44,499 nucleotides of DNA, taken from the NCBI GenBank assembly GCA_021791815.1, contig JAJYVV010000011.1, forward strand, positions 1-44,499, written 5' to 3'. The translations under genes were made by a program, and so were the position numbers. The stretch comes from Bacillota bacterium (GTDB lineage Bacteria > Bacillota > Sulfobacillia > RBS10-35 > JAJYVN01). Each line of letters begins with the position of its first letter. The stretch's first letter is position 1. Of the stretch, positions 2,999 to 44,233 are shown one piece after another. The notes under the pieces are model-generated. The model was not told the origin of the DNA and ran no database searches. It was given only the letters and a program-made list of their open reading frames with translations.

Positions 2999-4084
2999 TC
3001 AGATTTCGGGAATCTCGATCTCGACCTCGCGGCCGGACGCGGCCGAGCGCAGGACGCCGTCGATGATGGCCTGGTTGCGCACGATCAGCTCGCCGGGGAT
3101 CGGAGCCGGCCGGCCGGCCCGGATCGCGGCCACGAACTCCTTGACCTTCTGGGCGAAGATGTCGATGTCGTGGCGCCGGACCGGAATCGCGGTCTCGGTC
3201 TGCTGGCCCAGGAGGTCCCGATACAGCGTGATCGAGCCCACGCCGCCATCCCAGACGCCGCTCCACGGCCCGCTGCCGGCGGGGGTCACCTTCAGGCCGG
3301 CATCCGTGCCCAGAAACATCGTGGCGCCCAAGGTGTCCATGTGCATGGCCCACGAGATCTTGAAGTTCAGGACGACGCCGCCCTCAAGCCGGACGATGGC
3401 GACCCCGAAGTCTTCGACCTCGAAGCGGGAGGCCTCGCCGTGATACCGCGGCGACGTGCCGAAGTAGTTGGAGGTGTAGGCGGAGACCGTCAGCGGCCTG
3501 GGGTAGCCGATGGCGTTCATGGCCATGTCGATCGAATAGCAGCCGATGTCGGCCATGGCGCCGGCCCCGGCCAGGTCCTTGCGGATAAACGTCCCGCCCG
3601 GCATCCCGCGGCGGCGGCCGCCACCCGTCTCGACGTAGTAGACCTTGCCGAGGTCCCCCGACTGCACGATGCGTTGGACCATCTGCATGTTGGGGTCGTA
3701 GCGGGGCTGGAAGCCGATCGTCAGAATCTTGCCGGCCCGCTTCGCCGCGCGCGCCATTTCCACGGCCTGTTCGAGCGTGACGGCCATGGGCTTCTCGCTA
3801 AGGACGTTCTTCCCGGCCTGGAGCGCGTCCACCGCGGTGCGATGATGCGCCACGTTGGGCGTGCAGACGCTGACGCCGTCGAGGTCCAGTTCCAGCAGGG
3901 CCCGGTGGTCCTCGAAGGGCCGCGCCTGGGCCAGCCCGGTCCGCTCGATGAACTCGGCCGCCTTGCCCGGGATGACGTCCGCGACCGCGAGGACTTCGAC
4001 GTCGGGGATTTGCTTGTATGCGTTCGCGTGCGCGTGGGCGATGCCGCCGCTGCCGACGATGCCGATCCTGACCGTGCCAGCCAC
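2999..4084 (-). CDS. Gfo/Idh/MocA family oxidoreductase (paralogue A)
   Basis: This is an NAD(P)-dependent sugar, polyol or inositol-type dehydrogenase of 361 residues. The N-terminal Rossmann fold carries GSGGIA at 11-16, and the catalytic-lysine motif EKP is at 97-99. The active-site helix reads DIGCYSID at 179-186, with Tyr183 where most members have His, as in glucose-fructose oxidoreductase of Zymomonas. There is no Tat or Sec signal, so it is cytosolic. The start is GTG at 4084 behind AAAGGGG. It lies divergent from the GH51 arabinofuranosidase across 285 nt, which suggests a shared carbohydrate role, and is followed by a hairpin at 2948-2982. It is about three quarters identical by eye to the gene at 34301-35383, including a shared [11 protein letters not shown] block and a [10 protein letters not shown]-terminal motif. 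Substrate unknown. Confidence 0.9.
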
Positions 4085-20967: not shown

Positions 20968-21080
20968 GGCGGGCCTTCCGCCCGGGAGCCGCAGGAAAGA
21001 CCCGCCCGCTCGGAAAAGCCGGCGCCGGGCATCCGGGCCGGGTGCACGCGGGCCCCGGCGCCAGAAGGGTGGCGGCCGCC

Positions 21081-22181
21081 GTGGACGAGGCGCGCATCGG
21101 CGTCATCGGGGTCGGGCTGATCGGCAAGAGCCATGTGGAGGGGTACGCCGGCATCCCCGGCGCCCGCGTCGTCGCCGTGGCCGACATCGACGAGGCGGAG
21201 GCCCGGCACGTGGCGCAGCGCTGGAACGTTCCGGCCGTCCACCGCGATTTCCGCGAACTGCTGGCGCGCGACGACATCGACGCCGTGGACGTCTGCCTGC
21301 ACAACAACCTCCACGCGCCGGTGGCGATCCAGGCCCTGCGCGCGGGTAAGCACGTCTATTGCGAGAAGCCCATCGCGGGCTCGTACGCCGACGGCCGCGC
21401 CATGGTGGAAGCGGCGCGGGAGTCCGGCCGCATGCTGCACGTCCAGCTGGCCACCCTGTACCAACGGGAGACCAAGGCCGCCCGCCGTCTCATCGAGCAG
21501 GGTGAGCTCGGGCGCGTGTACTACGCGCGATCGGTCGGCTACCGCCGCCGCGGGCGGCCGTTCGTCGACGGGTACGGGGCCCCGTTTTTCGTCCGCAGGG
21601 AGACCGCCGGGGGTGGCGCCCTGCTGGACATGGGGGTCTATCACATCAGCCAGATGCTGTGGCTCCTCGGCCAGCCGCAAGCCGAACGGATCTCCGGGCG
21701 GACCTATCAGGAGACGTCCATGGACGAGGCGAGGCGCGCCGCCAGCGGCTACGACGTGGAGGAACTCGCCCTGGGGTTCTGCCGGCTGCAGGGCGGGATC
21801 ACGCTGGAGGTCATCGAGGCTTGGGCCATCCACCTCGGACCCGGCGAGGGCAGTTGCGTCGCCGGCAGCCGGGGCGGCGTCCGCCTCTCTCCGTTCTCTT
21901 TCCACACCACCCAGGGCGACGTGCCGTGGGACATGACCACCGACCTGGGCGACCTGGAAACCCGGCTGCACCGCCTCGAGCCCGCGTATGGCGCCTACGA
22001 CTCCTCGCAACGCCACTGGGTGGCGGCGCTCCGCGGCGAGGTGCCCCTGCTGCCCTCGGCCGCGCTCGCCCTGGAGACGATGCTGATCAGCGAGGGCATC
22101 TACCTGTCGGAGCGGCTCGGCCGGGAGGTCACGGCCGCCGAGGTGCGCGCGGCGTCGCAGAGCACGGCCCTGCACCTGTGA
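21081..22181 (+). CDS. Gfo/Idh/MocA family oxidoreductase
   Basis: A 366-residue NAD(P)-dependent dehydrogenase. The Rossmann motif is GVGLIGKSH near residues 10-18, with an acidic VAVADID at the end of the second strand that favours NAD. The catalytic lysine motif is YCEKPIAG near 92-99, and the active-site segment LLDMGVYHISQML has Tyr at the usual His position followed directly by His. The C-terminal beta-sheet is complete and ends in an extended helix. It is only distantly similar to the pair at 2999-4084 and 34301-35383. Start GTG 21081 is 12 nt from AGAAGG; GTG 21069 is in frame but abuts it. It ends 16 nt from the converging gatB stop. Substrate unknown; inositol, hexose or uronate derivatives are typical. 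Confidence 0.88.
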   Translation: MDEARIGVIGVGLIGKSHVEGYAGIPGARVVAVADIDEAEARHVAQRWNVPAVHRDFRELLARDDIDAVDVCLHNNLHAPVAIQALRAGKHVYCEKPIAGSYADGRAMVEAARESGRMLHVQLATLYQRETKAARRLIEQGELGRVYYARSVGYRRRGRPFVDGYGAPFFVRRETAGGGALLDMGVYHISQMLWLLGQPQAERISGRTYQETSMDEARRAASGYDVEELALGFCRLQGGITLEVIEAWAIHLGPGEGSCVAGSRGGVRLSPFSFHTTQGDVPWDMTTDLGDLETRLHRLEPAYGAYDSSQRHWVAALRGEVPLLPSAALALETMLISEGIYLSERLGREVTAAEVRAASQSTALHL

Positions 22182-34300: not shown

Positions 34301-35383
34301 TCAGATGGCCGGGATGTCGATGTCCACTTCGTGGCCGGTCGCGGCCGAGCGCAGAATCCCGTCGATGACGGCCTGGTTGCGCACGATGGTCTCGCCGGGA
34401 ATGGGCGCCGGCCGGCCCTCCTTCACGGCGACGACGAAATCGCGGACCTTCTCATAGAAGATGTCCAGATTGCCCCGCGGCCGCAGGGGCAACGGGCTCT
34501 CCGTGTGCATGCCGAGGACGTCGTGGTAGAGGGTCACACCGCCCACGGTGCCGTCCCAGGCGCCGCCGGAAGGAAGCACCTTGAGGCCGGCGTCGGTGCC
34601 AAGGAACAGCGTGTTGCCCAGCGAGTCCATGTGCATCGCCCAGGACACCTTGAAGTTGAGCACGGCGCCGCCCTCCAGGCGCACCAGGGCGATGCCGAAA
34701 TCTTCCACCTCGAAGCGGTCCGCCTCGCGGTGGTATTTCGGGTTCGTGCCGAAGTAGTTGGACGAATAGGCCGACACCGTGAGGGGGCGCGGGTAGTCGA
34801 GCGCATGGAGCGCCATGTCCAGGGCGTAGCACCCGATGTCCGCGATGGCGCCCGACCCCGCAAGGTCCTTGCGGATGAACGTGCCGCCGGGCGCCCCCCG
34901 CCGCCGCCCGCCGCCGGTCTCCACGTAATAGACCCGCCCGAGCTGCCCGGACTGGACCACCGACCGAACCATGCGCATGTTGGGGTCGTAGCGCGGCTGG
35001 AATCCGATCGTCAGGATCTTGCCGGACTCCTTCGCGGCGCGGGCCATCTCGACCGCCTGCTCCAGCGTGACCGCCATCGGCTTTTCGCACAGCACGTGCT
35101 TGCCGGCCCGCAGGGCGTCGACCGAGGTGCGGTGATGGGCCACGTTCGGCGTGCACACGCTGACGCCGTCCAGGTCCAGTTCCAGGAGGGCCCGGTGATC
35201 GTCGAAGGCGCGTGCGGCCGGCAGGCCGTGGCGTTGGACGAACTCCGCCGCCTTGCCGGGGACGACGTCCGCCACCGCCACGATCTCCACGTCGCTCATC
35301 CGCTTGTATGCGCCGGCGTGGGCGCCGGCGATGCCCCCGCTGCCAATGATCCCGATGCGCACCGAGTCCGCCACCGCGACCAT
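34301..35383 (-). CDS. Gfo/Idh/MocA family oxidoreductase (paralogue B)
   Basis: A 360-residue NAD(P)-dependent dehydrogenase closely resembling the product of 2999-4084 over its whole length, with identical stretches such as [19 protein letters not shown] and [12 protein letters not shown]. It has Rossmann GSGGIA, EKP lysine motif and DIGCYALD with Tyr at the usual His position, as in paralogue A. Divergence concentrates near residues 260-300, where B lacks a few residues of A ([12 protein letters not shown] versus GGAWDGT) and where the substrate loop probably lies. The start is ATG 35383; the GTG three codons later lines up better with paralogue A and leaves a more normal distance to AAAGGGG. 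The strong hairpin at 34245-34284 follows. No transporter or kinase is adjacent. Confidence 0.9.
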   Translation of the reverse strand: MVAVADSVRIGIIGSGGIAGAHAGAYKRMSDVEIVAVADVVPGKAAEFVQRHGLPAARAFDDHRALLELDLDGVSVCTPNVAHHRTSVDALRAGKHVLCEKPMAVTLEQAVEMARAAKESGKILTIGFQPRYDPNMRMVRSVVQSGQLGRVYYVETGGGRRRGAPGGTFIRKDLAGSGAIADIGCYALDMALHALDYPRPLTVSAYSSNYFGTNPKYHREADRFEVEDFGIALVRLEGGAVLNFKVSWAMHMDSLGNTLFLGTDAGLKVLPSGGAWDGTVGGVTLYHDVLGMHTESPLPLRPRGNLDIFYEKVRDFVVAVKEGRPAPIPGETIVRNQAVIDGILRSAATGHEVDIDIPAI

Positions 35384-35549: not shown

Positions 35550-36224
35550 TCAGGACCCGGAGGACGCAGAACCGGCGGCCGCCGCCGTCTGGTCGATCGT
35601 GACCCGGATGATGTGCGCGTTCCGCTTGGGCGAACTGATCTCGCTCGGGTTCAGAGGGTTGGCGGCCACGGGCAGCGCGGCGATACGATCGACCACCGCC
35701 TGGCCGGATGTGACCATGCCCACCTCCGTATAGACGGGGTCGGCGTTGAGGTTGGCGCACTGGGACCCCGTGCAGATGAAGAATTGGCTCCCGTTGGTGT
35801 TCGGTCCGGAATTCGCCATGGCCACGATGCCGGGTGCATATGGATAGGGCGGCGGAAGCTCGTCGCCGAACCGGTACCCGGGACCGCCCGTGCCGATGTT
35901 GTTCGGGTCGCCGGTCTGCACCATGAAGCCCTTGATGACGCGAAAGAACCGCAGGCCGTTGTAGAAACCGTGCCGCGACAGGAACACGAAGTTGTTCACC
36001 GCGACAGGGTCCTGGGCAGCGAACAGGTCGATGGTGAAGGTGCCGAAGTTGGTGTCGACGACCGCGGAGTAGGCGTCGCCCGGCGTCAGCGTCACGGGCG
36101 GGGCCGAGGACCAGGTCGCATGGGTGGCGGTCCGCCCGCACGCGGCCGTCAGGAGGGCAGCCAGAAGGGCCCCGGCCGCCGCCCGCAGCGCGGCGCCCCC
36201 TCGGGGCATCCGCCGGTCGCGCAT
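35550..36224 (-). CDS. lipoprotein cyclophilin-type peptidyl-prolyl isomerase
   Basis: A 224-residue exported cyclophilin that would catalyse prolyl cis-trans isomerisation outside the membrane. The signal peptide has a basic start (MRDRRMPRGG), a hydrophobic core and lipobox LTAAC with Cys29. The cyclophilin fold covers about 50-215: LRFFRVIKGFMVQTGDP contains the catalytic Arg, and MANSGPNTNGSQFFICTG contains the substrate-binding Gln/Phe. DELPPPYPYAPGIVAM is a typical bacterial variant of the loop. ATG 36224 was chosen because GGAGG (complement of 36235-36239) lies 10 nt away; ATG 36230 is closer than ideal. It is divergent from the MFS gene and ends in a short hairpin. Confidence 0.92.
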   Translation of the reverse strand: MRDRRMPRGGAALRAAAGALLAALLTAACGRTATHATWSSAPPVTLTPGDAYSAVVDTNFGTFTIDLFAAQDPVAVNNFVFLSRHGFYNGLRFFRVIKGFMVQTGDPNNIGTGGPGYRFGDELPPPYPYAPGIVAMANSGPNTNGSQFFICTGSQCANLNADPVYTEVGMVTSGQAVVDRIAALPVAANPLNPSEISSPKRNAHIIRVTIDQTAAAAGSASSGS

Positions 36225-36292
36225 CCGCATACCGCCTCCAGGTCCTGCGCCGGTGCGCGGGCCGCCCCCGGCCGCCGCCCTCGGACCGAGAC

Positions 36293-36377: not shown

Positions 36378-37649
36378 ATGCGAGGCGTGATCCGCCGACT
36401 GCGCGCGACCCTCGGCGCCCGAACGATGCGCAGCTTCGGCGTGGACGTCGCGGCGACGAGCCTGTTCGCCGTCTTCCAGGCGCTGCTGTCCCCGTTCGTC
36501 CTCATCGTGGCGGTCCAGCGCGGCGCGGCGCCGTGGGAGGTCGGCCTCCTCACCGCGGCTCCGAACGCCGCGATGCTGCTTTCGGGGTGGTACGCCAGAC
36601 TGGCGGAACGCCGGCGCCTGGTGCCATGGGTGTCGTGGACCAGCGGCCTCGGGCGGGCGCTCCTGCTGCTCGGGGCGTGGGGCAGCGGCCTGGGGCTCTT
36701 CCTCGGGGCCTACTGCGGCTTCAGCATCCTGTCCGCGGCCTCCAACCCCGCGTACACGGCCATCGAGCGCGCGATCTACCACGAGCGGTGGCGCGGGCAG
36801 CTGATGGCGGGCGTGCGCACCGCCCTCGGCCTCGTGCAGTTCCTCGGGACGCTGGTCGCCGGCCGGCTCATGGACGCCTATGGCTCGGCGCGCGTCTGGA
36901 CGGTCGCGGTGATCTTCGGCATCGGCTCGGCGGTGGTCTTCACGCGCATGCCCGAGCCGGCGAGCGCGGCCCGGCCGGCCGGGAGCGAGCCGCGGGACCG
37001 GGTCGCCGGCCGCGGCGCCCTGGCGCTCGCCGCGGCGGATCCGCGCTTCCGCGCCCTCATCGTCGCGGTGATGCTGGCCGGCGGCGGCAACCTGCTCGTC
37101 GCCCCCGGCTATCCGCTGTACCAGGTCCACCGGCTGCACCTTACCGACGGAGCGGTCGCCGACCTGACCGCGGTATGGGCGCTCGCCTGGACCGTGTGCT
37201 ACCCCCTCTGGGGGCGGATCTGCGACCGGCGCCGGCCCGCGCTCGTGGTGGCCCTGGCCTGCGGCTGCTACGTCGTCCCTCCCCTCTGCTACGCCGCGGG
37301 CGCGCACCTGCCCGTGCTCCTTGGGGCCTACCTCGTCCAGGGGGTCGGGGACTCGGCCCTCGACGCCGGTTGGCAAAACCACGTGATGCGCCTCGCGGGC
37401 GACCGCATCGGGGTCTACGCCGCCGCCTACTACACGTTCCTCGGCGTCCGCGGCACGCTCATGCCCATGCTGGGCGCCGCCGCGGCCGCGCGCTTCGGGC
37501 TGGTCCCCCTGTTTCTGGCCGGCGCCGCCATGGTTCTCGCCGGGCTGTGGTGCGCGCGCCGGCTGCCCGATGCGCCGCTGCCGCTCGCAAGGGACGTCCG
37601 CGGCGCGCCGGAGCAGCGGGTCGCACCGGGGTCGGGGGCCCGCGCATAG
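36378..37649 (+). CDS. major facilitator superfamily transporter
   Basis: A 423-residue inner-membrane transporter with about 12 hydrophobic segments in two halves, separated by a cytosolic loop (about 190-225, MPEPASAARPAGSEPRDR). Segments include FAVFQALLSPFVLIVAV, LLLLGAWGSGLGLFLGAYCG and LIVAVMLAGGGNLLVAPGY. A short polar loop (ARLAERRRLVPW) sits where MFS proteins carry their loop 2-3 motif, in degenerate form, and a partial repeat (WGRICDRRRPALV) appears in the second half. The substrate cannot be read from the sequence; drugs, sugars and small acids are all possible. The ATG at 36378 has no ribosome binding site; the GTG three codons later, or ATG 36426, are alternatives. It is transcribed alone and converges on the sugar kinase. 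Confidence 0.85.
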   Translation: MRGVIRRLRATLGARTMRSFGVDVAATSLFAVFQALLSPFVLIVAVQRGAAPWEVGLLTAAPNAAMLLSGWYARLAERRRLVPWVSWTSGLGRALLLLGAWGSGLGLFLGAYCGFSILSAASNPAYTAIERAIYHERWRGQLMAGVRTALGLVQFLGTLVAGRLMDAYGSARVWTVAVIFGIGSAVVFTRMPEPASAARPAGSEPRDRVAGRGALALAAADPRFRALIVAVMLAGGGNLLVAPGYPLYQVHRLHLTDGAVADLTAVWALAWTVCYPLWGRICDRRRPALVVALACGCYVVPPLCYAAGAHLPVLLGAYLVQGVGDSALDAGWQNHVMRLAGDRIGVYAAAYYTFLGVRGTLMPMLGAAAAARFGLVPLFLAGAAMVLAGLWCARRLPDAPLPLARDVRGAPEQRVAPGSGARA

Positions 37650-37692: not shown

Positions 37693-38694
37693 TCAGCCCC
37701 GGGCGCGCAGGAAGGCGTCGACCTCCCCCCGGTCGGGCATCGCCGCCATCGCGCCCGGGCGGGTGGTCTGGAGGGCCGCCGCCGCGCAGCAGCGCCGCAG
37801 CATCTGTTCCGCCTCGGCGATGGACATCGCGGCCGGGCCCACGGCGGAAGAGCCGGGCGCCGCCCCGGCCCACCAGGCGAGCATCGTGCCGAGGAAGCAG
37901 TCCCCCGCGCCGACCGCGTCGACCGCCTGAACCTCGAAGCCGGGATGCGCGGCGACGGCATCCGGCGTGACCCACAGGGCGCCGCGCTCGGCGCGGGTGA
38001 CGACGACGGCCGCCGGTCCGCCCGGGGCGCCGCGGGACGCCGCGAGCAGCCGGCGGGCGCGATCCTCCGCGGAGCCCTCGGCATCCGCGAGCAGTTCCAA
38101 TTCCGCCTCGTTGCACTTCAGGACCTCCGCGAGGGCCGCGGCCTCCCGTGCGGCCGCGGCCCCGGCCGAGGCGGATGGCCACAATCGGGGGCGCCAGTTG
38201 ACGTCGAAGCAGGCGGGCACCCCGAGCGCGCGCGCCCGCTGCAGCGCGTGCAGGGTCGCCGCCCGTGACTCCGGCGCGGATAGGGAGACCCCTCCGCACC
38301 CCAGGCCCGCCGCGCCGCGCAGAACCTCATCCCCCACGTCGCCGGGCGCCAGGGCCGCGTCGGCGCCCCGCAGGAACTGGAACCCGGCGTCGCCTCGCGC
38401 CAAGGGCAGCACGAAGGCGAGCGTCGTGAACAGCGTCGGGTGCGTCCGCAGCAGGGCGCCGTCCACCCCCGCGCCGACGAGCGCCTGCCGGAGGAGCCGG
38501 CCGAACGCGTCCCCGCCGACGCTCCCCACGAAGGCCGCGGACGCACCCGCCCGGGCCGCCGCGACGGCCGCGTTGGCCGGCGCGCCTCCGGGCGACGGGC
38601 GGAACGCGCGGGCCTCCTCCAGCGCTGCGCCGCCCTCGCCCAGGAAGTCCACGAGCACCTCGCCGATCAGGACGACCCTGCCCACGCCCGACAC
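37693..38694 (-). CDS. PfkB family sugar kinase (fructokinase/KDG-kinase-like)
   Basis: A ribokinase-fold kinase that phosphorylates a sugar or sugar acid with ATP. With GTG 38694 it has 333 residues. The N-terminal VVLIGEVLVDF strand, the substrate-binding GGAPANAAVAAARAG (PfkB signature 1 region) and the catalytic DAVGAGDCFLGTML (signature 2, Asp base in GAGD) are all intact. A further VLKCNEAELELL helix is typical of fructokinase and 2-dehydro-3-deoxygluconokinase. GTG 38694 was preferred over GTG 38718 because AAAGGGGGG (complement of 38702-38710) lies just upstream. It is the last gene of the five-gene operon, 30 nt after the AP-superfamily hydrolase. It would act on whatever the upstream hydrolases or dehydrogenase release. 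Confidence 0.9.
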   Translation of the reverse strand: MSGVGRVVLIGEVLVDFLGEGGAALEEARAFRPSPGGAPANAAVAAARAGASAAFVGSVGGDAFGRLLRQALVGAGVDGALLRTHPTLFTTLAFVLPLARGDAGFQFLRGADAALAPGDVGDEVLRGAAGLGCGGVSLSAPESRAATLHALQRARALGVPACFDVNWRPRLWPSASAGAAAAREAAALAEVLKCNEAELELLADAEGSAEDRARRLLAASRGAPGGPAAVVVTRAERGALWVTPDAVAAHPGFEVQAVDAVGAGDCFLGTMLAWWAGAAPGSSAVGPAAMSIAEAEQMLRRCCAAAALQTTRPGAMAAMPDRGEVDAFLRARG

Positions 38695-38724
38695 GCCGGT
38701 TCCCCCCTTTGGCCCCACTTCGCC

Positions 38725-40155
38725 TCACGATCCGGTCCAGAGCCCGGGGGCGATCGGTTGCCCGACCGCGTCGGGAAGGTCGGGCAGGCCCAGGTGACGG
38801 GCGGCGGTCGGCCCGACGTCCACCAGGCGCAGGCCACGGGCCGCCCGCCCCGGCCCCGCGCCGCGCCGCAGGTCCCGCCCCGAGATCGCCGTGAACACCC
38901 CGTACCGGGCATGATTCGCCCCGTCCGGTCCGGTGTCGTTCTCGCGGGTGAACACCTCGCCGGCGCGGCTCGCGAACCCGCCGAGGGCGCGCCAGTAGAG
39001 GTCGCCGGGATACACGATCAGGTCCGGCGCGAACCCGGCCACCCGCCGGTAGACGCGCTGCGGGACGTGGACGCGCGTGCGCGCGCCGGCGGGACCCCAG
39101 GGCATCCGCACGGCCCGCAGGCGGCGCGCGATCTCGTCCCGCGCCTGGGCGGCCCGGTCTGCGGGCACCCGCCCTTCCGGTTCACGGCCCGCGATGTTCA
39201 GGAACACCCGGCCGTAGTATCCGCCGTCCCCCCAGGCGGTTGTGGCCGCCCAGTCGACGTCCTCGGTCCGCAGCCGCCCCGGGCGCTCCGGAGGGCGGCG
39301 CAGGCGCAGCAGCCCCTCGCGCAGCAGCCATTCGTTGATGAGGAAGCCTCCGTCCATGCGCTGCGCGCCATGGTCGGAGACGCAGAGCACCAGCGTCTCG
39401 TCGTCCACGAACCGCAGGGCCTCGCCGAGCCAGCGATCGACCACCGCGTAGTACTCGCGGATCGTATCCCGGAACGGGCTCCCGGCCTCGTGCAGCACGT
39501 GCCGCGGGTCCATGAACTGCCAGAAGGCATGATGGGCACGGTCGGTTCCGATCTCGACGATGGCGAACAGATCCCAGGGGCGCGTGCCCAGGAGGTGGGT
39601 GGCCAGCCGCCAGCGCTTGTCGGTCATGTCCAGGATCTCATCCAGCACCCGGCGCCGGTCTGGGCTGCGGGCGTCCTCGACGTCGAAGCGGTAGTCGCCG
39701 ACCAGGGCCCGCGTCTCCGCGACCAGCGACGCCGGCTCGGCGAACGCGCTGTCCGGCCCGGGCGTCAGGAAGCAGCCGACGAACTCGCCGCGAACCCTGC
39801 GGGGCGGGTAGCCGGGCGGCACACCGACGATGGTGCTGTGCAGGCCCGCGGCGCCGGCCAGGTCCCAGACGGCCGGCGCGGACGAGGCGGGTATCCCGTC
39901 GGAGAAGGTCAGGCGGAGAGGCCCGTAGCCCCAACCCGCGCGGTTCCGGAACCCGTAGACGCCGAGCTGGCCCGGGTCCCGGCCGGTCATGGCGCACATC
40001 CAGGCGGGACAGGTGATCGGCGGGCACACACTGAGCAGGCGGCCCGCGGCCCCGGCCGCGATCCGCTGCAGATTGGGCATGGCGGCCCGGAAGCGGCCGA
40101 GCGCCAGCGTCGGTTCGAGGCAGTCCAGGCCCAGGAGCATGACCCGGGGCCGCAT
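38725..40155 (-). CDS. alkaline-phosphatase-superfamily phosphodiesterase/nucleotide pyrophosphatase-like
   Basis: A 476-residue metal-dependent hydrolase without a signal peptide. It begins VMLLGLDCLEP (first metal Asp), then CPPITCPAWMCAMTG carrying the predicted Thr nucleophile, as in type I phosphodiesterases. IGTDRAHHAFW provides Asp and His metal ligands and CVSDHGAQRMDGGF the second Asp-His pair. HARYGVF near residue 400 probably holds the last His ligand. This pattern matches the phosphodiesterase/nucleotide-pyrophosphatase and iPGM-like branch rather than sulfatases. Start ATG 40155 follows AAGGGAG (complement of 40165-40171) at 9 nt. It sits between a sulfatase-like gene and the sugar kinase, so it probably acts on a phosphorylated sugar or nucleotide-sugar in the cytosol. 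Confidence 0.87.
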   Translation of the reverse strand: MRPRVMLLGLDCLEPTLALGRFRAAMPNLQRIAAGAAGRLLSVCPPITCPAWMCAMTGRDPGQLGVYGFRNRAGWGYGPLRLTFSDGIPASSAPAVWDLAGAAGLHSTIVGVPPGYPPRRVRGEFVGCFLTPGPDSAFAEPASLVAETRALVGDYRFDVEDARSPDRRRVLDEILDMTDKRWRLATHLLGTRPWDLFAIVEIGTDRAHHAFWQFMDPRHVLHEAGSPFRDTIREYYAVVDRWLGEALRFVDDETLVLCVSDHGAQRMDGGFLINEWLLREGLLRLRRPPERPGRLRTEDVDWAATTAWGDGGYYGRVFLNIAGREPEGRVPADRAAQARDEIARRLRAVRMPWGPAGARTRVHVPQRVYRRVAGFAPDLIVYPGDLYWRALGGFASRAGEVFTRENDTGPDGANHARYGVFTAISGRDLRRGAGPGRAARGLRLVDVGPTAARHLGLPDLPDAVGQPIAPGLWTGS

Positions 40156-40211
40156 GCTGCCCAGCTCCCTTGCCTCGCGGGGTTCGGACGGCCCGGGCCC
40201 CGCGGGGCGCG

Positions 40212-41576
40212 TCAGTACCCCAGGTTGGCGAGGCGCCGGGAGACCCTCTCGCGATCCTCCTCGCTCACGGCGGGCGGCGCGGGGGCTCCCGGCGCCACGA
40301 TCCTCCGGAGCGACACCGTCTGCCGCGCCAGCGGGTCCCCATCCCCGGTCTCGCGCGCACGCCGCGCCACGTGGTCCTCGAGCCGCCGCAGCAGGGCGGA
40401 CGCGACCTCCGGCCGCACCGCCGCGAGGTTGGCGGTTTCGCCCGGATCCGCGACCATATCGTAAAGTTCCACGTCGGGCCCGCCGTGGAAGTCGGGCTCC
40501 AGGGCCGAGATGAGCTTGTAGCGGCCGTCCAGCCAGGCACGCTTGCGCATCCAGCTGCACTCCGTGCAGTAGAGGGGATCCTCGGAGCCGAGCCCTCCGC
40601 GCCAGGCCATACCGAGGTCCCGCCCGGGCAGGAACGCCGGCGCCGGTACCCCCAGGGCCCCGAGGACCGTGGGCGCCACGTCGAGGAGCGTCACGGGCCC
40701 GCCGCACGCCACGCCCCGGGGTACGCGCCCGGGTCCCCACAGCAGCAGGGGCACCCGGAGGTTCGTCTCGTACAGGCCGTGGTGATCGAACCAGATGCCG
40801 TGCTCGCCGAGCTCCTCGCCGTGGTCCGCCGTCAGCAACACGATCGCGTCCTGCAGGCAGCCGGCCGCCCCCAGCAGGCGCAGGAGGCGCCCCACGCCGT
40901 GGTCCAGGGCCCGGACGCACGCCGCGTATTGGGCGCGGGGGAAGGCGCGGTCGGTGACGCCCGGCATCCAGCCGGCGAAGTAGTCGGCGAAGGGGGCGAA
41001 GGCCCACATGGCATCCAGCCCGTGTTCCCCCGCCCGTTTCTCGTCGCCCGCATAGAAGAGGCGGTGCCACGGCGGGGGCGGGCAATAGGGCGTGTGCGCG
41101 TCCCAGAAGTGGAAGAAACCGAAGAACGGCCGCCCGGCGCGCGCCGCCGCGCCCAGCGTGTCCACGGCCTCCGCCGCGGCGGCGAGCACGGCCTCGGACT
41201 TGCGCCAGAACCCGTCGGGGGACGGTTCAAGGGCGTATGGGCAATAGCGGTCGAAGCCGCGCGGAAACCAGCGGCCCAGGTTGTCGGCCGCCGCCGTCAC
41301 GACGCCGGCCCCGGAGAGCGCCTCCGGGAGCCACCACAGGCCGGCGGGCGGCAGCACCGGTCCCCCGTGGGCGACGACGTGGTGGACGAACGCATCCTGG
41401 CCGGCGAACAGGGTGGTGTGCGCCGGCTGGGTCGGAATGTGCGGGGAACGGGCCTGGGTGAAGCGCGCACCCTCGGCCGCCAGGCGGTCGATCGCGGGGG
41501 ACGTCGGCAGGGGGCAGCCGTAACAGCCGAGGTGGTCCGCGCGCAGGGTGTCGCACACGATCAGCACGACGTTCAG
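40212..41576 (-). CDS. sulfatase-fold hydrolase 1, Thr in place of formylglycine Cys
   Basis: A 454-residue alkaline-phosphatase-superfamily protein. The first metal-binding strand is VVLIVCDTLRADHLGCYG. The sulfatase signature C/S-x-P-x-R is replaced by T-Q-P-A-H (Thr49 to His53) within HIPTQPAHTTLFAG, so formylglycine cannot form. WDAHTPY and LTADHGEELGEHGIWFDHHG provide further ligands. LYCTECSWMRKRAW near the C-terminus is shared with the next gene. No signal peptide. The start appears to be CTG at 41576: GGAAAGGGG lies exactly 9 nt upstream, the paralogue's GTG aligns at this codon, and no ATG/GTG/TTG precedes it; GTG 41567 is the only nearby alternative. About half identical by eye to the product of 41627-43129. 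Substrate unknown: a phosphoester is more likely than a sulfate ester. Confidence 0.85.
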   Translation of the reverse strand: MNVVLIVCDTLRADHLGCYGCPLPTSPAIDRLAAEGARFTQARSPHIPTQPAHTTLFAGQDAFVHHVVAHGGPVLPPAGLWWLPEALSGAGVVTAAADNLGRWFPRGFDRYCPYALEPSPDGFWRKSEAVLAAAAEAVDTLGAAARAGRPFFGFFHFWDAHTPYCPPPPWHRLFYAGDEKRAGEHGLDAMWAFAPFADYFAGWMPGVTDRAFPRAQYAACVRALDHGVGRLLRLLGAAGCLQDAIVLLTADHGEELGEHGIWFDHHGLYETNLRVPLLLWGPGRVPRGVACGGPVTLLDVAPTVLGALGVPAPAFLPGRDLGMAWRGGLGSEDPLYCTECSWMRKRAWLDGRYKLISALEPDFHGGPDVELYDMVADPGETANLAAVRPEVASALLRRLEDHVARRARETGDGDPLARQTVSLRRIVAPGAPAPPAVSEEDRERVSRRLANLGY

Positions 41577-41626
41577 GGCAGGCGGCCCCTTTCCGGGATG
41601 GTCAGGCCCAGGCGCCGGCCCCGCCG

Positions 41627-43129
41627 TCAGGCCTCGCTCGGCGGCGCACGGCGGGCTCGACCGCCCGCCCGGGTACCGCCCTTCCGAGCCGGGGCCGCCG
41701 GTGCGTCGCCAGGGACCGGGGGCACGGGAGCCGGCGGGCCCTCCGTTCGGGCGGGTTCCGCCGGGGGGACGACCGCGGCGGGGGCGGGCGGGGATTCCGG
41801 CGGCGCGGCCGGCACGGCCATGCGGACGTTGCCGATCCGGCGCATCGTCACGCCCTGGACCGAGACCGGCGCGGGCCGACCGGTCTCCCGTTCCCGCCGC
41901 TCGACGTGGGCCAGCATGTCCGCCCGCAGCCGCGCGACCACGTCCGGCCGCGCGTCCGCGAGGTTCCGGCGTTCGCCGGGGTCGGAGGGCAGGTGGTACA
42001 GCTCGACGGGCGGCATGTGGTGGAAGTCGGGCTCCAGCGCGAGGATCAGCTTCCACTCGCGCGTCCGCCACGCGTGCTTCCGCATCCACGAGCACTCGGT
42101 GACGTAGATGCCGGTGTCGTTTTGGCCCCAGGTGCCGAGTGCTCCGTCCGCCGCGCCGCGCAGGATGGGCCAGAGGCTGCGGCCCGCGAGGCCGAGCCCC
42201 TCGGCACCCTGCCCGGCGGCCTCGAGGACGGTCGGGGCGATGTCGTAGTGGCTGACGGGACCGTCGTGCACCCGGCCCGCGGGCACGCGGCCCGGCGCCC
42301 AGAGGATCAGGGGCACATGGACGACGGTCTCGTACAGGCCGTGGTGATCGAACCACATCTGGTGCTCATCCAGTTCCTCGCCATGATCGGCGAAGAAGAT
42401 GACCAGAGTGTCGCGGTCGAGACCCCGGGCCTTCAGCATGACCAGCATGTGCTGCAGGCACACGTCCATGTAGGCCAGCTCCGCGTCATACTGCCCCTTG
42501 GGGAACTCGACGTCGGTCACGCCCTCCATCCACTCGTGGAAGTACCAGCGGAACGGCTCGAAGGCCCACATCGCCTCCAGGGAGCGGTTGCGGGGATCCC
42601 GGGGATCCCCCGCGTAGAACGTCCCCCAGAACGGATCCGGGGGCAGGTATGGGGTGTGCACGTCCCAGTAGTGCAGGAAGCAGAAGAACGGCCGGTCCTG
42701 GGACGCTATGGCCGTAAAGACCTCGTCCGCGGCGGCGTTGACGGCTTCGGCCTTGCGCCAGCGCCCGGCCGGATCCGGGCCCAGATGGTAGGTGCGGTAC
42801 AGATCGAAGCCGCGGGAGAACCACCGGCCGAGGTTGTCGGCGGCCGCGGTGAAGTAGCCCGCCTCGCGCAGGCGCTCCTGGATCTGCCGGATGCCGGGAT
42901 CGAGCTCGACCCGGCCGCCGTGCGCGACGATCTGATGGTCGAACACGTCGACGCCCGTCAGCACCGTGGTGTGGCCGGGATGGGTCGGGACGTGCGGGGC
43001 GATGCAGCCCCGGAACAGCGCGCCCTCCGCCGCGACGCGGTCCAGGTGGGGCGAGGTCAGGCGCGGATAGCCGTGGCAGGACAGGTGATCCGCGCGCAAC
43101 GTGTCGAGGCTGACCAACAGGACGTTCAC
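41627..43129 (-). CDS. sulfatase-fold hydrolase 2 with disordered C-terminal tail
   Basis: A 500-residue paralogue of the adjacent hydrolase 1. It has VLLVSLDTLRADHLSCHG, then HVPTHPGHTTVLTG with T-H-P-G-H (Thr49 to His53) at the sulfatase C-x-P-x-R position, WDVHTPYLPP, and FFADHGEELDEHQMWFDHHG. The conserved VTECSWMRKHAW segment also appears. From about residue 440 an additional tail of some 60 residues is Pro/Ala/Glu-rich and ends in Lys/Arg/Gly (KGGTRAGGRARR), looking disordered and basic. GTG 43129 follows a GGAG at about 11 nt. It is second in the operon, 57 nt after the oxidoreductase and 50 nt before hydrolase 1. No signal peptide, so it is expected in the cytosol. Together with hydrolase 1 it suggests two related substrates or a heteromer. 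Confidence 0.87.
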   Translation of the reverse strand: MNVLLVSLDTLRADHLSCHGYPRLTSPHLDRVAAEGALFRGCIAPHVPTHPGHTTVLTGVDVFDHQIVAHGGRVELDPGIRQIQERLREAGYFTAAADNLGRWFSRGFDLYRTYHLGPDPAGRWRKAEAVNAAADEVFTAIASQDRPFFCFLHYWDVHTPYLPPDPFWGTFYAGDPRDPRNRSLEAMWAFEPFRWYFHEWMEGVTDVEFPKGQYDAELAYMDVCLQHMLVMLKARGLDRDTLVIFFADHGEELDEHQMWFDHHGLYETVVHVPLILWAPGRVPAGRVHDGPVSHYDIAPTVLEAAGQGAEGLGLAGRSLWPILRGAADGALGTWGQNDTGIYVTECSWMRKHAWRTREWKLILALEPDFHHMPPVELYHLPSDPGERRNLADARPDVVARLRADMLAHVERRERETGRPAPVSVQGVTMRRIGNVRMAVPAAPPESPPAPAAVVPPAEPARTEGPPAPVPPVPGDAPAAPARKGGTRAGGRARRAPPSEA

Positions 43130-43186
43130 CGGTATGCCATCTCCGCTTCGCGGGAGTGGGGGCGGGCGGACCGGCTCCGCGCCGGC

Positions 43187-44233
43187 TCAGGGGATCGGCA
43201 CCCGGCGGCCCTGCGCCGCGGCGTCATACGCGGCCAACACCATGGCGACCGACTGCCGTCCGTCGCGCGCGGTCGCGGCCGGGCTGCCGGCGCGCAGGCC
43301 GTCGAGGAACCCGCGGGCGACGGCCGCGATGCGCTCCCCGTGGCCGGCGGGGATGGGCAGGCCCTGGTCCTGCCAACCGCGCTCCGGTTCGGCCCGGCGG
43401 TACACCTTGAGGAGGATCGGTTGCGGCGGCCGGATGGCGCCCGTGCTCACGAGGTCGTCATGGTTCTGGATGATGACACCCTCGTCCCCATACACCTCGG
43501 TCGTGTTCTCGCCGACCAGCGTGGTCGCGGAGTTGGCGAGCTCGGCCAGGACGCCGCTCGCGAAGCGGTAGATGCACAGCCCGGTGTCCTCGAGACCGCC
43601 CGGCGCGAGCCGGCTCCCGACCTCCGCCACCACGCTCTCCGCCTCGCCGAAGACCCACCGCAGGAAGTCCGTCGCGTGCACCGCGTCGTCGAAGAACAGG
43701 CCGCGATTCAGCGCCGGGTCCGCGTGCCAGCGCGAGGCCCCCCGCAGGAACGCCTCGTCGAAGAGCACGCCGATGCAGTGCCTGCGGCGCGCCCAGCCGA
43801 TGCGGCCGATGGCGCCGCCCAGGACGAGCTCCCGCAGGCGCAGGTTGGCGGGATCGTGCCGCATCTGGAACGCGGTCTCGAAATGGGTCCCGGCCCGCGC
43901 CACCGCGGCCACGACCGCGTCGCATTCGTCGAGGGTGAGGCAGAGCGGCTTCTGGCACAGCACCGCGCGGCCCGCGGCCACGGCCTGCAGGCACAGATCC
44001 GCGTGGAAAGCGGTCTCGGCCGTGACCACCGCGGCGTCGCAATCGGCAAGGACCTCGTCGGGGGACGGCGCCACGGCGGCGCCGAACCGGGCCGCGAAGG
44101 CCTCCGCACGCTGCGGATCCGCGTCGTAGACCCGGCCAAGCTCCGCGTCGGCGAAGCCGCGAAAGCGCACCGCGTATGCGGCTCCGTGCCCGTGCGCCAC
44201 GCCCAGGTACCCGATCCGGATCTTCGCCGCCAT
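43187..44233 (-). CDS. Gfo/Idh/MocA family oxidoreductase, first gene of the hydrolase operon
   Basis: A 348-residue dehydrogenase. The Rossmann loop is GVAHGHGA rather than the usual GxGxxA, and the lysine motif is QKPLCL (Lys conserved, Glu replaced by Gln). The active-site helix reads FFDDAVHATDFLRW, with a true His in the D-x-x-x-H position, unlike the Tyr variants elsewhere in the window. The C-terminal sheet ends GRRVPIP, a common family ending. ATG 44233 follows GGGGAGGG (complement of 44239-44246) at 5 nt. As the first gene of the operon it may oxidise or epimerise the sugar that the PfkB kinase and hydrolases then handle; which step comes first cannot be read from sequence. Confidence 0.88.
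   Translation of the reverse strand: MAAKIRIGYLGVAHGHGAAYAVRFRGFADAELGRVYDADPQRAEAFAARFGAAVAPSPDEVLADCDAAVVTAETAFHADLCLQAVAAGRAVLCQKPLCLTLDECDAVVAAVARAGTHFETAFQMRHDPANLRLRELVLGGAIGRIGWARRRHCIGVLFDEAFLRGASRWHADPALNRGLFFDDAVHATDFLRWVFGEAESVVAEVGSRLAPGGLEDTGLCIYRFASGVLAELANSATTLVGENTTEVYGDEGVIIQNHDDLVSTGAIRPPQPILLKVYRRAEPERGWQDQGLPIPAGHGERIAAVARGFLDGLRAGSPAATARDGRQSVAMVLAAYDAAAQGRRVPIP

Follow-up and report, generated by a model that had tools for sequence, protein, structure and literature searches.

A conserved Bacillota gene cluster that joins Thr-type sulfatase-fold hydrolases to sugar-active enzymes: a candidate pathway for phosphorylated glycosides

On what kind of substrate would two sulfatase-fold hydrolases, a phosphodiesterase, a sugar-type oxidoreductase and a sugar kinase act together? 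The question is raised by a stretch of 44,499 nucleotides of Bacillota DNA (the window), which is apparently the whole of contig C272 (bases 1-44499) of the source genome G000 (assembly of 3.86 Mb, 87% complete) and carries, up to one of its edges, the five minus-strand genes GfoA, SulA, SulB, PDE and PfkB. This five-gene cluster is real, conserved and functionally coherent; it is more than a chance arrangement because orthologues keep the same order in other genera. The active-site residues of its hydrolases point to phosphate esters as the likely targets, and a catabolic role, with a phosphorylated or phosphodiester-linked glycoside as substrate, is proposed tentatively below.

Organization and conservation of the cluster

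With the starts chosen here, codon-model gene calls place GfoA at 43187..44233, SulA at 41627..43129, SulB at 40212..41576, PDE at 38725..40155 and PfkB at 37693..38694, with intergenic gaps of 57, 50, 56 and 30 nt, exactly as in a preliminary description of this locus. GfoA, the first gene of the operon that remains on the contig, codes for a Gfo/Idh/MocA oxidoreductase (Pfam GFO_IDH_MocA and C-terminal domains), SulA for a Thr-type sulfatase-fold (PF00884) hydrolase with Sulfatase and SGSH_C domains, SulB for a paralogue of SulA with the same domains and identical active-site residues, PDE for a predicted NPP-type phosphodiesterase of the AP superfamily (Phosphodiest, PF01663), and PfkB for a PfkB-family sugar kinase (PF00294). 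The TTG start at 41576 was adopted for SulB, the gene caller itself having picked GTG at 41567, which is also possible; PfkB starts with GTG at 38694, 38718 being another possibility. All five Pfam matches exceed the cut-offs, in support of the earlier view that a sugar-type oxidoreductase and kinase accompany three related AP-superfamily hydrolases. All five proteins lack membrane spans and hydrophobic N-terminal stretches (no 19-residue window above 1.7 on the Kyte-Doolittle scale), and their N-termini form the first core strands of their enzyme folds, which agrees with the cytosolic location, free of signal peptides, that had been proposed. In the operon interior, a scan found no sigma-70-like promoter, and terminator-like sites did not rise above the shuffled level. 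The operon reaches the contig edge, and its upstream (5') portion is probably absent from C272.

The taxonomic family of the window was sampled through six incomplete genomes from six genera (G000 and G398-G402). PDE and PfkB homologues are each found in all six and GfoA in five, its orthologues in G398, G399, G400 and G401 being 74-78% identical; the PfkB match of G400 is merely 45% identical and is located elsewhere in the genome. In G399 the order is Gfo0 - TIM barrel - GfoA - SulA - SulB - PDE - PfkB, Gfo0 being a second Gfo/Idh gene, so that all five window genes recur in the same order. G401 is arranged similarly through PDE (four window genes), and its PfkB opens another contig, followed by cyclophilin and MFS genes as in the window. 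G400 has GfoA - SulB - PDE, three window genes in the same order. In G398 the genes are split between two contig ends, one with Gfo0 - TIM barrel - GfoA and the other with PDE - PfkB - cyclophilin, and G402 has only a Gfo0 remnant - PDE - PfkB - cyclophilin - MFS. The genes thus do co-occur in other genomes, and their description as one co-directional unit holds. The genes are conserved as a group, but five is not the full set, since in three genera (G398, G399 and G401) Gfo0 and a TIM-barrel gene of the isomerase/lyase type precede GfoA. These three genera therefore display in one cluster the 3-keto-glycoside-type arrangement of a Gfo/Idh gene, an isomerase-like TIM barrel and a second Gfo/Idh gene, which is not visible on the window contig. 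With gene-finder starts, 4-nt overlaps between SulA and SulB in G399 and between SulB and PDE in G400 suggest translational coupling.

Further afield, searching 84,980 species genomes with the PDE protein recovered four Bacillota metagenome-assembled genomes at 67-70% identity and eleven remoter homologues in other groups. In the phylum sample (398 genomes), a single genome beyond G000 has a SulA relative at E <= 1e-60, and co-occurrence statistics across Bacillota consequently rest on few genomes.

Active sites of the hydrolases

At 53-54% identity, SulA and SulB come out of the tree as sister clades (support 97/93), indicating that they arose by duplication in or near the window's family. 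The three AP-superfamily hydrolases that had been described as three related enzymes needed together are indeed present, but they represent one duplicated type and one NPP type. The next branch is a protein of G324, a genome from another Bacillota class (weak support, 86/76), and is followed by a third type, SulC, found on contig C243 of G000, in other family genomes, and in Paenibacillus, G324 and Chloroflexi, the whole clade being supported at 100/99. The SulC of G000 (L034:9665-11047) is 70-80% identical to its counterparts in L079, L080, L081, L082 and L084, 71% to that of Paenibacillus and 67% to that of G324, and SulC adjoins a Gfo/Idh gene, a TIM-barrel gene or both in several loci.

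Membership of SulA and SulB in PF00884 is clear (131-142 bits, cut-off 25), and solved sulfatases are the closest structures to them by sequence; the AlphaFold 2 model of SulA is poor (pLDDT 67), and its predicted fold is taken from the Pfam sequence match. In an alignment of SulA and SulB orthologues, D9, T49, H53, D156, H158, D248, H249 and H262/H263 are invariant. T49 aligns with the formylglycine position of sulfatases, which bears out the earlier label 'Thr-type'. Where S1 sulfatases carry Cys (or Ser) in C/S-x-P-x-R, SulA and SulB read T-H/Q/E-P-G/A-H, and H53 and H262 stand in place of the sulfate-site signature Arg and catalytic Lys, every orthologue having Thr/His/His in place of Cys/Arg/Lys. 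Across the SulA/B/C clade the motif position reads T-x-x-x-H/Y (T-x-P-x-H in SulA and SulB) and the Lys position is His; other PF00884 members of the same genomes retain C-x-P-x-R. By motif, SulA and SulB are not S1 formylglycine sulfatases. A second Thr-type group (L085, L086, L089, L090), with T-x-x-x-R and thus a retained Arg, forms its own clade (100/99) apart from SulA/B/C, so that a formylglycine-position Thr may have had more than one origin.

For PDE, a 15-homologue alignment revealed a conserved putative two-metal site made up of D11, T48, D205, H209, D261, H262 and H415. These residues, which we take from motif and family knowledge to be the equivalents of the NPP metal ligands, comprise the Thr nucleophile and the ligand set D, T, D, H / D, H, H of NPP-type enzymes, and the set is complete in 14 of the 15 homologues, D205 being lost solely in L012 (G402). 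The AlphaFold 2 model (pLDDT 93.6) has as its top Foldseek matches Xac NPP of Xanthomonas and the human ENPP3, ENPP6 and ENPP1, with E values of about 1e-15 to 1e-14, and a profile search weakly recovers phosphonoacetate hydrolase and Xac NPP. The deviating PDE of G402 (L012:10001-11419) has Ser at the putative ligand D205 and Gln at H208, in a locus without GfoA, SulA, SulB or the TIM barrel; decay after loss of the partners is possible, as is an assembly error. In G425 (L035:3098-5829), a PDE homologue (43% identical) lies beside a distant Thr-type relative of SulA, among glycosyltransferases.

Because the sulfatase residues are replaced in SulA and SulB, and because PDE combines a complete NPP-type site with a predicted fold like that of NPPs, the hydrolases probably act on phosphate esters and not on sulfate esters. 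Of the phospho- or sulfo-ester cleavage foreseen in the preliminary description, the former is thus the probable activity, and the latter is unlikely for all three hydrolases, which lack the sulfatase hallmark residues.

A proposed pathway and its alternatives

The surroundings of SulA relatives outside the family bear on the nature of the substrate. These relatives sit with Gfo/Idh genes and mostly with a TIM barrel too, and ABC sugar importers are present in both Bacillota cases. In Paenibacillus cellulositrophicus, a plasmid cluster (L041; NZ_CP045296.1, about 833-849 kb) is organized as two-component system - substrate-binding protein - two permeases - Gfo - TIM barrel - 'sulfatase' - Gfo - cysC - 'sulfatase' - AraC - Cys-type sulfatase, and thus holds an ABC sugar importer and two Gfo/Idh genes; of its three sulfatase-fold proteins, two are Thr-type and one is Cys-type. 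G324 has Gfo - Sul - substrate-binding protein - two permeases - Sul - Gfo, with no TIM barrel called, and the Chloroflexi genome G483, assembled from a metagenome, has Sul - Gfo - Gfo - TIM barrel followed by a GH127-type gene, with no importer called. The Gfo genes of G324 and Paenibacillus (Gfo2) are 48-54% identical to Gfo0 of the window's relatives, and the TIM barrels of the homologous loci are 37-39% identical to that of G399. Other loci of the family mix Thr- and Cys-type members. The visible operon contains no transporter, as had been noted, but this is partly an effect of the contig end, as the importers of the Paenibacillus and G324 loci indicate.

From the levoglucosan-type precedent (see below) and the recurrence of the same partner genes around SulA relatives in other lineages, we propose, with a confidence somewhat short of even, that the cell imports a phosphorylated or phosphodiester-linked glycoside and breaks it down in the cytosol, the Gfo and TIM-barrel chemistry resembling that of levoglucosan or 3-keto-glycoside pathways, and that the window holds the 3' portion of the catabolic operon responsible, whose full order would be the one seen in G399. 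The glycoside would be taken into the cell, and its phosphoryl or phosphodiester parts would be stripped by the metal-dependent SulA and SulB, with their Thr nucleophile, and by the NPP-type PDE, via a covalent phospho-threonine intermediate. By analogy, the Gfo/Idh pair and the TIM-barrel protein, in which E68, D164, H190 and E235 are invariant and likely form a metal site (Pfam AP_endonuc_2), might then cleave the glycosidic bond through successive oxidation, elimination and re-reduction, and PfkB might phosphorylate the released sugar for entry into central metabolism. Gene content, conservation, linkage and active-site residues are observed, and to these we add by inference the phosphate chemistry, the order of the steps and the catabolic direction. 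A broader proposal is more doubtful: an undescribed catabolic route would serve a glycoside that is phosphodiester-linked (or of mixed phospho/sulfo type), a duplicated cytosolic clade of Thr-type sulfatase-fold proteins having turned to phosphoester chemistry and acting alongside redox-assisted cleavage of the glycoside; the route would recur in Bacillota and Chloroflexi as a SulC - Gfo - TIM barrel module. A limited literature search, from which papers naming 'Gfo/Idh/MocA' solely in slashed form escaped, found no paper with this gene combination, in line with the earlier statement that no described pathway is known to have it.

Several observations weigh against the catabolic proposal. No member of the cluster has a known enzyme activity, and as visible on the contig the operon contains neither transporter nor regulator. 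The parts are separable, G400 being without SulA, and G402 having PDE and PfkB without GfoA, SulA, SulB or the TIM barrel at that locus. In G399, about 1.3 kb separate SulB from PDE and about 1.0 kb PDE from PfkB, making a single transcript uncertain there. Outside the family, PDE homologues do not keep these partners: four of the eleven lie near sulfate-activation genes, and one more, in G425, near glycosyltransferases.

This last point touches on the possibility that the cluster desulfates and catabolizes a sulfated sugar, SulA and SulB being unusual Thr-dependent sulfatases. The PF00884 fold, the solved sulfatases as closest structures by sequence, the Cys-type sulfatase and APS kinase of the Paenibacillus cluster (the latter above its family cut-off) and the other family loci combining Thr- and Cys-type members would all fit, but the consistent replacement of the formylglycine Cys, signature Arg and catalytic Lys in both proteins makes this explanation improbable. 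What keeps it alive is an association that our analysis cannot explain: of the 11 loci with PDE homologues in non-Bacillota genomes, four (L013:8788-11371, L014:972-3069, L016:3751-10830 and L023:5743-12023) have genes for ATP sulfurylase and/or APS kinase next to the homologue or close by, and three of these four also hold one or two remoter PDE paralogues. Within the window's family, a role of APS kinase (cysC) in the pathway was considered and rejected: in the four genomes with long enough surroundings (G000, G399, G401, G402) cysC lies away from the operon and accompanies genes that by eye are of the sulfate-assimilation type, PAPS-reductase-like in 4/4 and sulfite-reductase-like in 3/4. 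The PDE relatives near ATP sulfurylase and APS kinase in other phyla would also suit a role in building or modifying glycans, in which the AP-superfamily proteins would trim a surface polysaccharide or act on it as transferases. Membrane transferases are among the known Thr-type enzymes of PF00884, G425 has its PDE homologue and distant SulA relative among glycosyltransferases, and another distant SulA relative lies near a glycosyltransferase-like gene in G486. The operon proteins, however, are devoid of membrane segments, close SulA relatives accompany Gfo/Idh, TIM-barrel and ABC importer genes, and none of the operon's flanking genes was seen to be a glycosyltransferase; we consider a role in glycan building or modification improbable as well.

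Catabolism of inositol phosphodiesters or inositol phosphates, in which the hydrolases would free inositol for degradation by IolG-, IolE- and IolC-like enzymes, is suggested by the best NCBIfam matches of GfoA (IolG, inositol dehydrogenase) and PfkB (IolC_N, 5-dehydro-2-deoxygluconokinase) and, for the TIM barrel, by a weak match to IolE that ranks in its top two. These scores are nevertheless far below the cut-offs (109 versus 355, 158 versus 300 and 32 versus 290 bits, respectively), and IolD exceeds its cut-off in none of the six family genomes, incomplete as they are (best 296 versus 715 bits). Inositol catabolism is thus not supported and seems quite improbable. The cluster might instead salvage a nucleotide-sugar or cofactor within the cytosol, PDE cleaving a pyrophosphate or nucleotide diester and the remaining enzymes recycling the sugar. 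PDE, with its full set of ligands and its NPP-like fold, would suit such a role, as would the NagA gene and the GlcNAc-kinase-like gene that G398 and G401 have near the operon. Homologous loci carry sugar ABC importers, however, and the NagA/NagK-like genes form a separate unit beyond an opposite-strand gene, so that salvage appears very unlikely.

Genomic surroundings, significance and known systems

Convergent with the operon lies an MFS transporter gene (36387..37649, plus strand; Pfam MFS_1), a neighbour retained in G401 and G402 and at most a candidate member of the pathway. The minus-strand gene at 35550..36230, by Pfam a cyclophilin-type peptidyl-prolyl isomerase, also follows PfkB in G398, G401 and G402 and is not counted in the pathway. 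Further Gfo/Idh genes of the window contig lie at 2999-4084 and 34301-35383 (mutually 75% identical) and at 21069-22181, the G000 genome being rich in this family. Upstream of the extended operon, G401 (L011:547-2732) and G398 (L087:5432-7278) have an N-acetylglucosamine-6-phosphate deacetylase gene (NagA; over the cut-off in L011) and a GlcNAc-kinase-like gene, both behind an opposite-strand Gfo/Idh gene.

If the proposal is correct, the cluster represents a new catabolic pathway for a carbohydrate or phospho-sugar and defines a gene clade, without the formylglycine motif, that is probably misnamed 'sulfatase', as it is annotated in the Paenibacillus plasmid record. It would provide a handle on shifts between sulfate and phosphate chemistry in the AP superfamily, and it poses a substrate question for Bacillota known in this analysis solely as metagenome-assembled genomes.

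With S1 sulfatases and phosphonate monoester hydrolases (PF00884), SulA and SulB share the fold, an SGSH_C-like C-terminal domain and the D and DH metal motifs, but they carry Thr/His/His rather than formylglycine Cys/Arg/Lys. PDE resembles the NPP family in its Thr nucleophile, its apparently full two-metal ligand set and its predicted fold (TM 0.5-0.57 by query length), whereas it is only 12-17% identical to solved NPPs, is predicted to be cytosolic and has large insertions. With the myo-inositol pathway (iolG, iolE, iolC) the cluster has in common the superfamilies of the oxidoreductase, the TIM barrel and the kinase; it differs in scores that are all below cut-off, in the family lacking an IolD over cut-off and in the three extra hydrolases. 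In the levoglucosan cluster of Bacillus smithii (lgdA, lgdB1, lgdB2, lgdC), as described in the portion of the report available, a Gfo/Idh/MocA enzyme and two sugar-phosphate-isomerase-like proteins stand beside a dehydrogenase, and the region includes a gene of a sugar ABC transporter; the route runs through oxidation, elimination, hydration and reduction (PMC7676230). The joint presence of a Gfo/Idh/MocA oxidoreductase and sugar-phosphate-isomerase-like proteins is shared with the clusters studied here, while that portion notes no AP-superfamily hydrolase or PfkB kinase, and its sugar ABC transporter gene contrasts with the visible part of our operon, which has no ABC genes (PMC7676230). The resemblance is at the family level only: the levoglucosan dehydrogenase model (LevoglcsnDh) gives GfoA and Gfo0 49-66 bits against a cut-off of 650, and the BT_2158/2159 families, by which glycoside 3-dehydrogenases were sought, were far below cut-off or unlisted. 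By analogy, the cluster would work most like a redox-assisted glycoside catabolic cluster to which phosphoesterases have been added.

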